Shown: positions 76-10,790 of the stretch, piece by piece
Position numbering within the stretch: the stretch's first letter is position 1
How the letters are laid out: every line of letters starts with the position of its first letter
Assembly: GCA_040757115.1 (NCBI GenBank)
Contig: JBFLYA010000123.1
Span: 1 to 11,171 of the forward strand
Source: a bacterium
GTDB taxonomy: Bacteria; UBA9089; CG2-30-40-21; SBAY01
Direction: 5' to 3'
DNA length: 11,171 nucleotides
The notes under the pieces: generated by a model
What the model was told of the DNA's origin: nothing
The model's database searches: none
What the model saw: only the letters and a program-made list of their open reading frames with translations
Translations under genes and position numbers: made by a program

Positions 76-348
76 GTAACCGTTCAGGCTATATATCAAA
101 AGTGTAAGAAAGGGGATAAGGAGATAAAAGTGATATGGAGATAAGATAATAGAAATAGATTGAAATTTATAGAAATAGGTAGAAATTGATTGTGGAAAAC
201 AACAAATTGGTCACTGGTCAATGGTCATTGACTAATGACTAATTTCTATAAATTTCTATTAGTTTCTATTAATTTCAATTTTTTTAATAATATCTCCCTA
301 TCTCCTTAATCTCCACATCTCCTTTTGTTACACCACCTGAACGCTTAC
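76..348 (+). mobile_element. Family A miniature inverted-repeat element, copy A1 (IS66-type ends)
   Basis: This 273-bp non-coding element has ends GTAACCGTTCAGG (76-88) and CCTGAACGCTTAC (336-348), which are inverted repeats with one mismatch. It is flanked by the exact 8-bp direct repeat ATAAAATT (68-75 and 349-356). The left half is purine-rich and the right half is an imperfect reverse complement of it, so transcribed RNA could fold into a long hairpin. A nearly identical copy lies inverted at 8830-9066; A1 differs by a 36-bp central insertion (209-244) and about two substitutions. GTAA ends with 8-bp duplications match what is known of IS66-family elements. No transposase is encoded, so movement would need a transposase from elsewhere. 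Confidence 0.9.
209..244 (+). repeat. 36-bp imperfect palindrome present only in copy A1
   Basis: The segment GGTCACTGGTCAATGGTCAT followed by TGACTAATGACTAATT is absent from copy A2, and its length equals the whole size difference between the copies (273 versus 237 bp). It is an imperfect palindrome centred near 224. An ATT is found at both junctions, compatible with a small insertion or a slippage deletion. It shares the 14-mer TCAATGGTCATTGA with the hairpin at 5082-5115. Confidence 0.7.
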
Positions 349-2213: not shown

Positions 2214-3491
2214 ATGAAATATAAATCCACTTTCCTTTTAACTTTTGCTATTCTTTCAGGAATAATTATAGGCATTGCCATTTTATTTCGTCCTGATATA
2301 TATGTTCTTGCTGGTAGTTGTTTCGCCATAATCACTCTAATACTCATCTTTATTCGGCCATATTTTGGTATTATTATTTATTATGCGACTCTTTTTATGC
2401 TCCCGGAGGAATTAGCAGGAACTCCTGCTCCCTTGATAATATGTTTAATCACAACCTTATTTTGCCTTAAAGATGTTATTAAAACTCGAGGATATAAATT
2501 TGTCTTTGGGAAACAGAGTTATTTCCTATCAGGATTATGGTTAATGATGGTAGTATCCGTGGTTTTTGCCTACGAAAAAAGCCATTGTTGGAAACCATTA
2601 TTAAGTTTTAGTAAAACATTTATATTTTATTTCGTAACAATTAATCTTATAAGGACAAAGAAAGATTTTAAAATACTACTCTGGGCAATCGCAGTTATCT
2701 TTGGCATTTTAGCCTTAAAGTGTAATGTTCATTGTTTTCTATTTGGACCTGGACGCGTTGCCGGTGCTGGGGGTGATAATAATCATTTTGCCTTAGCGTT
2801 AATAATGGCATTACCTTTTAGTATTTATCTATTCTTTTCAGAAAATCTACTCCTTAAAAAACTCCTTTTAGGAATAATCTCATTGTGTATCATTGCAACG
2901 GTTATTCTTACTTTTTCAAGAGGTGGTTTTATTGGATTAATTGGGGTATTAAGTTTAATATTTTTAAAGGCAAGAACTAAGGCATTAGCTCTCTATGGAA
3001 TTGTATTTTTAGTTCTATTGTTCATAGTTTCAATACCTTCAGGATATATAGAAAGACTAAACACTATCTTAGAGTATCAGAAAGATGATTCTGCTATGGG
3101 AAGGATATACGCCTGGAGAGCAGGTGGACAGATGATATGGGAACGACCACTAATAGGAATAGGATTGGGTAATTTCGCTCCCTTAGCCCATACCTATGAT
3201 TCCCGATTAGATAAATCTATGGAGGCTCATAACTCATTTATCCATTTAGCGGGTGAGTGTGGTTTGATTTCATTATTACTCTTTATTATGTTAATATCTA
3301 CTTCGATGATAGATTCATATAGAATCAGAAGAAATATAGATGAAAGATTTTCTAAGATAACAGTTCCTGCTTGTAAAATAATAGAGGTAAGTCTTGGTGG
3401 ATATGTGTTAGCGGGTAGTTTTCTAAGTGAGGTAAATTTTGAGCTTGTTTATCTTTTATTTGCATTGAGTGTGATACTTAAACGATTGTAA
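2214..3491 (+). CDS. O-antigen ligase/polymerase-like membrane protein (Wzy/WaaL superfamily)
   Basis: A 425-residue protein with about ten to twelve hydrophobic segments. Superfamily features are GGDNNHFALALIMALPF (186-202), TFSRGGFIGL (233-242) with the conserved Arg in a membrane-proximal loop, the large extracytoplasmic loop with RIYAWRAG and RPLIGIGLGNF (297-321), and EAHNSFIHLAGECGLI (337-352). Such proteins transfer or polymerise lipid-linked glycans on the periplasmic face. The DNN and SRGG segments also recall exosortase-associated O-glycosylation ligases, but no exosortase gene is in view. A weak AGGAA precedes the ATG. The stop codon TAA lies inside the left end of the element at 3488-3913. 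Without that insertion the frame would read on through TTA TAC CAG AAC ACA to TAA, so the original protein was probably four residues longer. Confidence 0.85.
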   Translation: MKYKSTFLLTFAILSGIIIGIAILFRPDIYVLAGSCFAIITLILIFIRPYFGIIIYYATLFMLPEELAGTPAPLIICLITTLFCLKDVIKTRGYKFVFGKQSYFLSGLWLMMVVSVVFAYEKSHCWKPLLSFSKTFIFYFVTINLIRTKKDFKILLWAIAVIFGILALKCNVHCFLFGPGRVAGAGGDNNHFALALIMALPFSIYLFFSENLLLKKLLLGIISLCIIATVILTFSRGGFIGLIGVLSLIFLKARTKALALYGIVFLVLLFIVSIPSGYIERLNTILEYQKDDSAMGRIYAWRAGGQMIWERPLIGIGLGNFAPLAHTYDSRLDKSMEAHNSFIHLAGECGLISLLLFIMLISTSMIDSYRIRRNIDERFSKITVPACKIIEVSLGGYVLAGSFLSEVNFELVYLLFALSVILKRL

Positions 3492-3913
3492 GCGTTCAGC
3501 AGTCATCTATCAGTTGTCAACTGATGGCTGACCGCTGGGTGTATGTAAAATTTGTGGGTAAAAAATATTGAGGAATATTCATCTTTTTGCCGATATAAAG
3601 AAATAGATGAAATTCAATGCGAAAATTACAAATTCCAAGCACCAAATCTCAAATAAATTCCAAATTCCAATTTCCAAATAAGTTTCAAATTCCAAAGATT
3701 ATATGACAACGAGAGGAATTTATTTAGATTTCTCAATAATTGAAGAAAAAATCTTTTTCTTGTCTTGTTTGGAATTTTGAATTTTGGTCATTGAAATTTA
3801 TTTGTAATTTGGTATTTGTGATTTGGAATTTTGTGATTTTCAATTGATTTAACCGTTAATTCAGACGGGTAAATAGTTACCCATAAATTTTACACGCACC
3901 CCTGACCGCTTAC
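3488..3913 (+). mobile_element. Element D: nested inverted-repeat element with IS66-type ends
   Basis: A 426-bp non-coding element filling most of the gap after the ligase gene. The ends are GTAAGCGTTCAG (3488-3499) and CTGACCGCTTAC (3902-3913), flanked by the exact 8-bp repeat AAACGATT (3480-3487 and 3914-3921). Here the base after the right duplication is A, which shows that the duplication is 8 and not 9 bp. Inside are layered palindromes: a subterminal hairpin (3490-3536), a 25-bp inverted repeat with 22 matches (3537-3561 against 3877-3901), and a core of AAATTCC-rich arms (about 3614-3700 against 3765-3848) that are imperfect reverse complements. Apart from its ends it is unrelated to family A, suggesting that different palindromic cargo has been captured between the same transposon ends. 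Confidence 0.85.
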
Positions 3914-3968
3914 AAACGATTATACCAGAACACATAATATTCATCTCCCCTAATGTAGCGAAGGTCGA

Positions 3969-7597: not shown

Positions 7598-7803
7598 GTA
7601 ACTATTCACCGCAGAGACGCGGAGACACAGAGAAAAAATTAAAATCTATTGGCTATACGCTTAATTCCATTTCTAATAGACCTGGACCTAATGTCTTATG
7701 TATTTCAATTGCTGTACCAATAATTTTTTCTGTTATCTGATTTATTTCCATGTTTTCTCTGTTCCTCTGCGTCTCTGCGGTGAATTACTATCTGAACGGT
7801 TAC
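7598..7803 (-). mobile_element. Element E: inverted-repeat element carrying a GxxExxY relic
   Basis: The left end GTAACTATTCACCGCAGAG starts at 7598. The right end, read on the - strand from 7803, is GTAACCGTTCAG followed by a second GTAATTCACCGCAGAG. The CACCGCAGAGACGC arms (7608-7637 and about 7753-7782) are near-perfect inverted repeats. The outer right 12 bp are identical to the family A end at 76. No 8-bp duplication is present (GAACTGCT left, AATTTGAA right), so this insertion is older or has been rearranged. It lies between the birA stop and the ribosome-binding site of the 817-codon gene. Confidence 0.7.
7653..7751 (-). pseudogene. Truncated GxxExxY-family gene remnant
   Basis: Read on the - strand from the ATG at 7751, the 32 codons give [20 protein letters not shown] followed by [12 protein letters not shown] and a stop. 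The first 27 residues match the typical N-terminus of GxxExxY proteins (MEINxITEKIIGAAIEVHKxLGPGLLE), after which the family normally continues with a (S/A)xY motif and about 90 more residues. Here the frame leaves the family pattern directly after GLLE and stops, so most of the gene is deleted. The GxxExxY function is not established. The relic is framed by CCGCAGAGACGC arms, a pairing I recall as common around these genes in uncultured bacteria. Confidence 0.7.
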
Positions 7804-8605: not shown

Positions 8606-8769
8606 TTTTCCCCTGAAAATAGGAAGTAGAAAGTAGAGAGTAGAAAGTAGAAAGTAAAGGAAACATCACTCCTCACGCCCATCTCCTTACCTCCCACCTT
8701 CTATCTCCTACCTACTATTTTCATCCTCATTTGTGAACCCACGGTTCATGAGCGTTTCCCCTGAAAATA
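8606..8769. repeat. Heptamer-repeat palindrome bounded by a 15-bp direct repeat
   Basis: TTTCCCCTGAAAATA occurs at 8607-8621 and again at 8755-8769. Between them lie five tandem 7-bp units of the type AGTAGAA (8625-8659) and then a pyrimidine-rich stretch (about 8680-8720, CATCTCCTTACCTCCCACC) with the same 7-bp rhythm in degenerate form. The two tracts are rough reverse complements, so the whole is an imperfect palindrome. A small hairpin GAACC-CAC-GGTTC (about 8735-8747) follows. This lies directly in the birA leader and probably separates the gene from its original upstream sequence. Confidence 0.6.
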
Positions 8770-8770
8770 C

Positions 8771-8801
8771 ATTCGCAGATTTCGCAGATTACACAGATTT
8801 T
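8771..8801. repeat. Short dispersed repeat (CGCAGATT type)
   Basis: CGCAGATTTCGCAGATTAC (8775-8793) contains two tandem CGCAGATT units and then ACACAGATTTT, of a kind I recall seeing dispersed in genomes of uncultured bacteria. Its right end is the 8-bp target duplication CAGATTTT (8794-8801) of element B1; the sequence resumes with a second CAGATTTT at 9156-9163. Confidence 0.5.
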
Positions 8802-9155
8802 AGAACGGTTCACTTTTGTTTGAAATCTTGTAAGCGTTCAGGTGGTGTAACAAAAGGAGATGTGGAGATTAAGGAGATAGGGAGATATTATTAAAAAAAT
8901 TGAAATTAATAGAAACTAATAGAAATTTATGGAAATTTGTTGTTTTCCACAATCAATTTCTACCTATTTCTATAAATTTCAATCTATTTCTATTATCTTA
9001 TCTCCATATCACTCTTATCTCCTTATCCCCTTTCTTACACTTTTGATATATAGCCTGAACGGTTACGAAATCTTGTGGTTAGAAAATGGACTGTGAATGT
9101 TTACAAATGTATATCCGAAACAAATCATAGGGAAAACGATAAAATGAACCGTCCC
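8802..9155 (-). mobile_element. Family B element, copy B1, interrupted by element A2
   Basis: The ends are AGAACGGTTCAC (8802-8813) and GAACCGTCCC (9146-9155), flanked by the exact 8-bp repeat CAGATTTT (8794-8801 and 9156-9163). Taking out A2 and one of its duplications leaves about 109 bp. B1 is inverted relative to copy B2 (9860-9994): its left 29 bp match the reverse complement of 9966-9994 at 26 positions, and its right end matches the reverse complement of 9860-9896 with about three mismatches. No coding capacity is visible. Confidence 0.8.
8830..9066 (-). mobile_element. Family A miniature inverted-repeat element, copy A2 (nested in B1)
   Basis: This is the reverse complement of A1, 237 bp long and lacking A1's 36-bp central insert. 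I count about two substitutions against A1. The ends are GTAAGCGTTCAGG (8830-8842) and CCTGAACGGTTAC (9054-9066), flanked by the exact 8-bp repeat GAAATCTT (8822-8829 and 9067-9074). The uninterrupted sequence can be seen in copy B2, where CAAGCTTTCAAAC (9966-9978) corresponds to the pre-insertion CAAGATTTCAAAC. This gives an internal empty-site control for the insertion. Confidence 0.92.
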
Positions 9156-9204
9156 CAGATTTTTAATTTTTCCTCCCTCGCTGGCGGGGAGATTGTTTGA
9201 TAGA

Positions 9205-9804: not shown

Positions 9805-9859
9805 AGTTGTAATGTAACTATTCAGCCACAGATGGACACGGATGAAACACTGAAAATTC

Positions 9860-9994
9860 GGGACGGTTCCTTTTATCGTTTTTCCTATGATTTTTGTTGG
9901 AAATTGGAAATTAGAAATTGGGCTTTTGTCTCTCTCCCTAATTTCCAATTTCTAATTTCAATCCGCAAGCTTTCAAACAAAAGTGAACCGTCCC
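9860..9994 (+). mobile_element. Family B element, copy B2 (nested in element C)
   Basis: This 135-bp non-coding element has ends GGGACGGTTC (9860-9869) and GAACCGTCCC (9985-9994), perfect 10-bp inverted repeats. The flanks GAAAATTC (9852-9859) and TAAAATTC (9995-10002) agree at seven of eight bases, consistent with an 8-bp target duplication. The centre has a palindrome of GGAAATTGGAAATTAGAAAT (from about 9899) and its approximate reverse complement ending near 9960, which is absent from B1. Confidence 0.75.
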
Positions 9995-10047
9995 TAAAAT
10001 TCGTAATCCGTGTCCGTAATTAGGCTAAAGGTTTTTCCGCCTGTTGT

Positions 10048-10089
10048 CCTCTGCCTTCTGCCCTCTGCCCTCTGCCTTCTGCCCTCTGT
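10048..10089. repeat. Six tandem 7-bp repeats (CYTCTGC)
   Basis: Six contiguous units, CCTCTGC, CTTCTGC, CCTCTGC, CCTCTGC, CTTCTGC and CCTCTGT, run without interruption. Short heptamer arrays of this kind resemble the STRR-type repeats described in cyanobacteria. This one lies inside element C, and a second heptamer array of different sequence is at 8625-8659. Confidence 0.85.
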
Positions 10090-10100
10090 ATTTATCCGTG

Positions 10101-10790
10101 CTAATCCGTGTTAATCAGTGGCTGAATAGTTACGACTAAAGTAAATATTTTATCCACTTCTTCTAAACTATTTACGACCAAATCGGCACAAGAGAAATCC
10201 AGTCCTTGAGTAAACTGGTTTGGAACAGCGATACATTTCATTTTAGCCGCTTTTGCTGACATTACACCTGTTAGTGCATCTTCTAACACCAGGCACTCTT
10301 GCGGACTAATGTTTAATTTTTCTGCGGCTAATAAGTAAATATCAGGATTTGGCTTACCGTATTTGACCTCTTCTCCAGAAACAATTACTTCAAACTGCTC
10401 AACGATGCCTAATTTATTAACAATCAATTCAATAAATCGTCTTTTGGAAGATGAGGCAATGGCTTTCCTTATTCCGATTTCATTTAATAGATGAAGGAGC
10501 TTAAAAAATCCAGGCATAGGTTTTATATTTTGTGCCAGAAGTCTTGTATAAATCTCTTCTCGCTCTTCTAAAAGCTTTATTGCTGGTTCCTCCAATTCAA
10601 GTTCTTCTTTGAATATCGTTAAACTTTCAATCGGGAGTCTTCCCATCAATTTTTGTTTAAGCGGTAGGGTAAAGCATTTACCTCTTTTTGCGGCTACCTG
10701 TTTCATTGCCTCAGAATATAAAGGCTCGGTATCAACCATTAGCCCATCCATATCAAAAATAACGGCTTTAATGGAGTAGTTTCTTTTCAT
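10101..10790 (-). CDS. HAD-superfamily hydrolase, beta-phosphoglucomutase-like (subfamily IA)
   Basis: A 229-residue cytoplasmic protein. Motif I is IFDMDGLMVDTEPLY (11-25) with nucleophile Asp13 and acid/base Asp15. The cap domain spans about 25-90. Motif II is ASSSKRR (112-118), motif III is Lys146 in GKPNPDIY and motif IV is LVLEDALTGV (167-176) with Glu170 and Asp171. Relatives include beta-phosphoglucomutases and small sugar-phosphate phosphatases; the substrate cannot be told from sequence. AGGG lies seven bases before the start on the - strand. The last ten residues (VTIQPLINTD, 220-229) and the stop are encoded entirely by the end of element C, entered at 10133 in codon phase, so the native C-terminus has been replaced. 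The catalytic domain is complete before that point, so activity is probably retained. Confidence 0.88.
   Translation of the reverse strand: MKRNYSIKAVIFDMDGLMVDTEPLYSEAMKQVAAKRGKCFTLPLKQKLMGRLPIESLTIFKEELELEEPAIKLLEEREEIYTRLLAQNIKPMPGFFKLLHLLNEIGIRKAIASSSKRRFIELIVNKLGIVEQFEVIVSGEEVKYGKPNPDIYLLAAEKLNISPQECLVLEDALTGVMSAKAAKMKCIAVPNQFTQGLDFSCADLVVNSLEEVDKIFTLVVTIQPLINTD

Follow-up and report, generated by a model that had tools for sequence, protein, structure and literature searches.

A putative IS66-type miniature element nested within an older MITE-like element of an uncultivated bacterium

The analyzed window of 11,171 bp represents the entire contig C123 of a 4.3-Mb genome (G000; 462 contigs, 99.9% complete), whose host belongs to a small phylum represented by metagenome assemblies. 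A second genome of the same genus (G001) served for comparison; its orthologous locus is located on contig G001:C110, the main blocks of which align to the window with 94.9-97.4% identity. Rfam and tRNA scans of the whole window returned no matches. The mobile-element features of the window are given in Table 1, and the principal arrangement is that of a 237-bp element, A2, located inside a second element, B1. Upstream of these, a unit of approximately 165 bp (CCCCTGAAAATAGGAAGTAG..CATGAGCGTTTCCCCTGAAAATA; positions 8607-8780) is present about once in the window, while it is repeated several times at the orthologous locus of G001 and more than 40 matches were found elsewhere in G001.

Table 1. 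Mobile-element features of the window (TSD, target duplication)
Feature	Position	Strand	Description
A2	8830-9066	+	237-bp non-coding element with the features of an IS66-type MITE; ends GTAAGCGTTCAGG / CCTGAACGGTTAC
Target duplication GAAATCTT, left copy	8822-8829	.	Belongs to B1; single in the G001 ortholog
Target duplication GAAATCTT, right copy	9067-9074	.	Exact 8-bp match to left copy
A1	76-348	-	Second A copy; TSD ATAAAATT; 36-bp palindromic stretch in loop
B1	8802-9155	+	MITE-like element interrupted by A2 and older than it; ends AGAACGGTTCA / TGAACCGTCCC; internal hairpin gone
CAGATTTT, left	8794-8801	.	Putative B1 target duplication; within CAGATT-rich stretch
CAGATTTT, right	9156-9163	.	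Putative B1 target duplication; deleted in G001
B2	9860-9994	-	Intact B, internal hairpin present; flanks GAAAATTC / TAAAATTC; G001 ortholog lacks it
C	9814-10133	.	Older GTAA-ended element (GTAACTATTCAGCC..GGCTGAATAGTTAC) holding B2; common to G001
D	3488-3913	.	GTAA-ended element (GTAAGCGTTCAGC..CTGACCGCTTAC); TSD AAACGATT at 3480-3487 and 3914-3921
E	7598-7803	.	Older GTAA-ended element, CACAGAG-type interior; common to G001; no TSD

The terminal inverted repeats of A2 are 13 bp in length, start with GTAAGCG/GTAACCG and differ from each other by a single mismatch. No open reading frame of 60 or more codons is present within the element, which folds as a single long imperfect hairpin (DNA fold z = -8). 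The octamer that surrounds A2 is part of the B sequence and occurs once in uninterrupted B copies; an 8/8 match by chance at two random breakpoints of the window has a probability of 1.6e-4. The coordinates that an initial annotation of this DNA, made from the sequence alone, had assigned to A2 and B1 proved to be exact, as did the presence of GAAATCTT and CAGATTTT on both sides of the respective elements.

When A2 is removed, the joined arms of B1 align with the reverse complement of B2, and the left (24 bp) and right (~45 bp) arms of the two are nearly identical. B2 is uninterrupted at the point where B1 is split, as had been proposed, and it additionally carries a hairpin; B1 is a degenerate B element that lacks the inner hairpin found in other copies at GGA^CTGTGAATG. 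Among 23 distinct B left arms in G000, only that of B1 is broken at the A2 point, the other 22 being unbroken, so that A sequence is not an integral part of B at this place in other copies. The clearest test is the one suggested in the initial annotation, a comparison with relatives lacking A2: in the same-genus genome G001, the left part of the orthologous B1 has the sequence AGAACGGTTCACTTTTGTTTGAAATCTTGCGGTTAG, in which GAAATCTT occurs once and A2 is absent. Taken together, the GAAATCTT repeat, the 22 unbroken left arms and the A2-free B1 of G001 bear out the order that the initial annotation had deduced, i.e., B first and A2 later at positions 8794-9163, and this order of events is well supported. 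Since B1 is present in G001 without A2, B1 was in place before the two species separated and A2 came later; an exact loss of A2 in G001, as the alternative to its late arrival, is unlikely. The reading that A2 and B1 form one composite element, of which A2 is an integral part and B2 a deletion derivative, draws its only support from the location of A2 entirely inside the outer duplication of B1. It is refuted by the G001 ortholog and the unbroken left arms; furthermore, a deletion would need to be exact and to take one of the two 8-bp repeats with it, and no other A copy among those examined is enclosed by B arms, which leaves this reading with practically no probability.

The two elements differ in how firmly their limits are defined. 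The initial annotation regarded both sets of boundaries as confirmed, which holds for A, as at least 40 copies share the same end bases. For B the boundaries are confirmed mainly through other copies and through the empty site of B2 in G001, and less through B1 itself. The B1 of G001 is truncated on its right side, and therefore offers no test of the right boundary or of the right CAGATTTT. In addition, CAGATTTT constitutes weaker evidence than its length implies because it sits in a CAGATT-rich stretch (GCAGATTTCGCAGATTACACAGATTTT), and the duplication and right end of B1 are less certain than was originally claimed.

B is a MITE-like family separate from A, with a lower copy number than A, a size range of about 108-184 bp, GGGACGGTTC-type ends and an internal hairpin that differs among copies. 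Exact 8/8 duplications were observed at B1, L023, L024, L025, L028 and L052, the last of which is located in G001, while the duplication of B2 matches at 7/8 positions and has an empty site in G001. In the fragmented G000 assembly, 46 matches to GGNACGGTTC were found; none of the end pairs detected delimited a long element, and no B copy with a transposase was found. ISL3 was rejected as the source of B, three ISL3-type loci being without B-type ends, and an origin from REP sequences or IS200-IS605 (RAYT), suggested by the CGTC-containing end of B, was dropped because B copies have 8-bp duplications. Several B copies have common flanks (GTCCTTTT), since they sit in a larger repeat that has itself been multiplied; this repeat, which holds the B copies L027, L028, L029, L035, L136 and L137 and whose ends apparently resemble GGTGGTGTCTGAAAATA..TAAGACACCACC, is perhaps another mobile family.

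Nesting at this locus is not confined to A2. In the G001 ortholog B2 is absent and a single GAAAATCC is present, as compared to GAAAATTC-B2-TAAAATTC in the window. B2 was inserted in the GTAA-ended element C, i.e., in the reverse order, and the sequence of events at B1 therefore cannot be extended to the families as a whole. For element D, G001:C110 shows a perfect empty site, with one AAACGATT versus two in the window. The account of nesting in the initial annotation accordingly stands for A2 in B1, but it missed both the position of B2 inside C and the empty site of D. Elsewhere, a GTAA-ended element, together with an exact AGCCCAAT repeat, splits the B copy at locus L032 of G000, the B copy at L134 carries a GTAA element and after it an A copy within which the contig ends, and at positions 1166-1565 of L025 a B copy is split by a TAGCACTTATTA..TAATAACTGCTA element with TA at both borders, which resembles an IS630/mariner-type insertion. 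Nesting is thus recurrent and occurs in both directions. The GTAA-ended elements at 7598-7803, 9814-10133 and from 10820 onward have CACAGAG-/ACGGATG-type interiors unrelated to A, and the same kind of GTAA ends encloses many different palindromic interiors.

A search of G000 with A2 retrieved at least 40 full or near-full A copies with identical ends, and among the matches listed 29 copies are 100% identical across positions 1-237. The 4.3 Mb of G000 contain 526 instances of the end motif GTAANCGTTCAGG, versus one for a reversed-pattern control. Within the window, A1 differs from A2 by the 36-bp loop palindrome (TTAGTCATTAGTCAATGACCATTGACCAGTGACC..), which has AATT at both its borders. G001 also possesses several A copies that are 100% identical to A2, despite the several-percent divergence of orthologous sequence between the two genomes, and for one 99%-identical copy (G001:C3) no counterpart of its region was found in G000. 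Such near-identical copies in both genomes fit with transposition that postdates the split and may have crossed between species, although they may alternatively reflect mixed binning of the two genomes. No record of the exact A end was found in named genomes.

The flanks of 50 A copies in G000 (A1 and A2 included) and G001 for which both sides were readable were surveyed for direct repeats. An exact 8-bp repeat was present at 23 copies and repeats of other lengths at none; these 23 octamers are 85% AT, as compared to 65% in the window, with a preference for A in the 5' half and for T in the 3' half. The remaining 27 copies lack an exact octamer repeat, which may be due to recombination between copies or to chimeric contigs in the metagenome assembly. 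A case in point is L052, a B copy of G001 with matched GACATATA flanks, of which the left one is found in G000 at L031 and the right one at L022, suggesting that unmatched flanks arose where copies recombined or the assembly was misjoined; a search for flanks swapped among ~50 A copies gave one 8-mer match. For comparison, MITEAba12 is flanked by duplications at only 40% of its copies (PMC6382973). The unmatched flanks and the L052 case, together with the L134 contig that terminates within an A copy, are also what would be expected if the junction were an assembly artefact, in which a short-read metagenome assembler had used the identical 237-bp repeat to bridge unconnected B arms. Yet the flanks of A2 represent both halves of a single B copy, with an exact repeat of 8 bp, and farther out the sequence on either side matches the same orthologous locus, a situation that a random misjoin would not restore; we consider an artefact highly improbable.

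With respect to the enzyme that moves A, contig G000:C277 (L036) contains a 1563-bp element whose 13-bp ends (GTAACCGTTCAGG / CCTGAACGGTTAC) are identical to those of A and surround an IS66 TnpC gene. This gene has two in-frame stops, its pieces match Pfam PF03050 and NCBIfam NF033517, and the likeness of the element to A ends after 13-14 bp. An intact 468-residue TnpC-only IS66 (L107/L140) from a different genome of this order lies between GTAACCGTTCAC ends; its protein is 100% identical to one in the record 'bacterium isolate Yes70-11', and GTAACCGTTCAC-type ends were likewise seen at a Spartobacteria locus that encodes a related IS66 protein. IS66 ends have been reported to start with GTAAGCG and to generate 8-bp direct repeats (PMC11946415), and two IS66 elements with 8-bp repeats have been tabulated (PMC3281130). 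As the ends, the 8-bp repeats and the IS66 genes between such ends agree, A is assigned to IS66 by mechanism, and with its many copies, its lack of a gene and a co-resident IS66 relic, A2 has the sequence features of an IS66-type MITE. An intact transposase gene with exactly the ends of A was not found in G000, for which reason the role of IS66 as mover is one that we infer; an active IS66 may be missing from the assembly, high-copy 1.5-kb elements being easily lost in short-read assemblies. The same finding would suit another DDE transposase that generates duplications of 8 bp, e.g., that of ISL3 or IS256, the IS66-like ends being coincidental. This is very unlikely in view of the IS66 genes that lie directly between GTAACCGTTCA ends in G000 and in the same order, and of the agreement with published IS66 ends and repeats (PMC11946415), IS66 being the only family examined for A-type ends.

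We therefore consider it very probable that A2 is a MITE mobilized in trans by an IS66-family, TnpC-only DDE transposase, and that it inserted into the older B1 after the split of the two species. The transposase would recognize the GTAA[C/G]CGTTCAGG ends of the non-autonomous element and cut it out or copy it, upon which A2 would be joined to an AT-rich target with an 8-bp stagger, and repair of the gaps would produce the 8-bp direct repeat. The target lay in the left arm of B1, which belongs to another MITE-like family and was in place before the sister species separated; A2 arrived thereafter. Counting against this scheme are the two stops in the sole near-complete G000 IS66 with matching ends and the 27 of 50 A copies without an octamer repeat. 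A broader proposal is that one IS66-type system moves a large, open-ended set of elements that have only their ends of ~13 bp in common and whose palindromic interiors are acquired, lost and swapped as modules. Its basis comprises the loop palindrome that distinguishes A1 from A2, the hairpin loss of B1 and the unrelated CACAGAG-/AATTTCC-type hairpins between the same ends. We regard this proposal as doubtful; if true, it would imply a hairpin-cassette system instead of the descendants of one defective IS.

The insertion of A2 in B1 is an ordinary event of miniature-transposon biology, and the genome of this uncultivated bacterium is very rich in repeats. The filled and empty sites in two close genomes nevertheless give a clean order of transposition events, and a very abundant repeat family, with 526 ends in one genome, is now linked to the IS66 family. 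This suggests that many repeats in such genomes could be sorted into transposon families by means of their ends and target duplications.

Among known systems, the TnpC-only IS66 family (NF033517 / PF03050) has GTAAGCG/GTAACCG ends and 8-bp repeats in common with A, whereas A is devoid of a gene and resembles the co-resident IS66 in the terminal 13-14 bp only. MITEAba12 and other IS-derived bacterial MITEs are, like A, short, gene-less and near-identical, with the ends of a resident IS, and MITEAba12 likewise retains its target duplication at only part of its copies; it has ISAba12 ends and 9-bp duplications, in contrast to the IS66-type ends and 8-bp duplications of A (PMC6382973). The CGTC-tagged REP repeats (PMC3733652) resemble B in being palindromic, in having CGTC in the end and in that no dedicated transposase was found, but they measure 20-40 bp, whereas B spans about 108-184 bp and has target duplications of 8 bp. 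A literature search by end sequence returned only primer-like matches, and no IS66-family MITE was found described in the literature searched. MITECca01 of Cardinium (PMC9769881) and MITEPsy1 (PMC3189936) are MITEs located inside other mobile elements, as is A2, with an IS982-type parent for the former and probably ISPsy2 for the latter, as opposed to the IS66 type of A; no sister-genome empty site of the A2 kind was seen in the text consulted. The principle of a MITE within a mobile element has thus already been published in these two reports, and what is new here is the IS66-type MITE family, its abundance and its empty sites in a sister genome.
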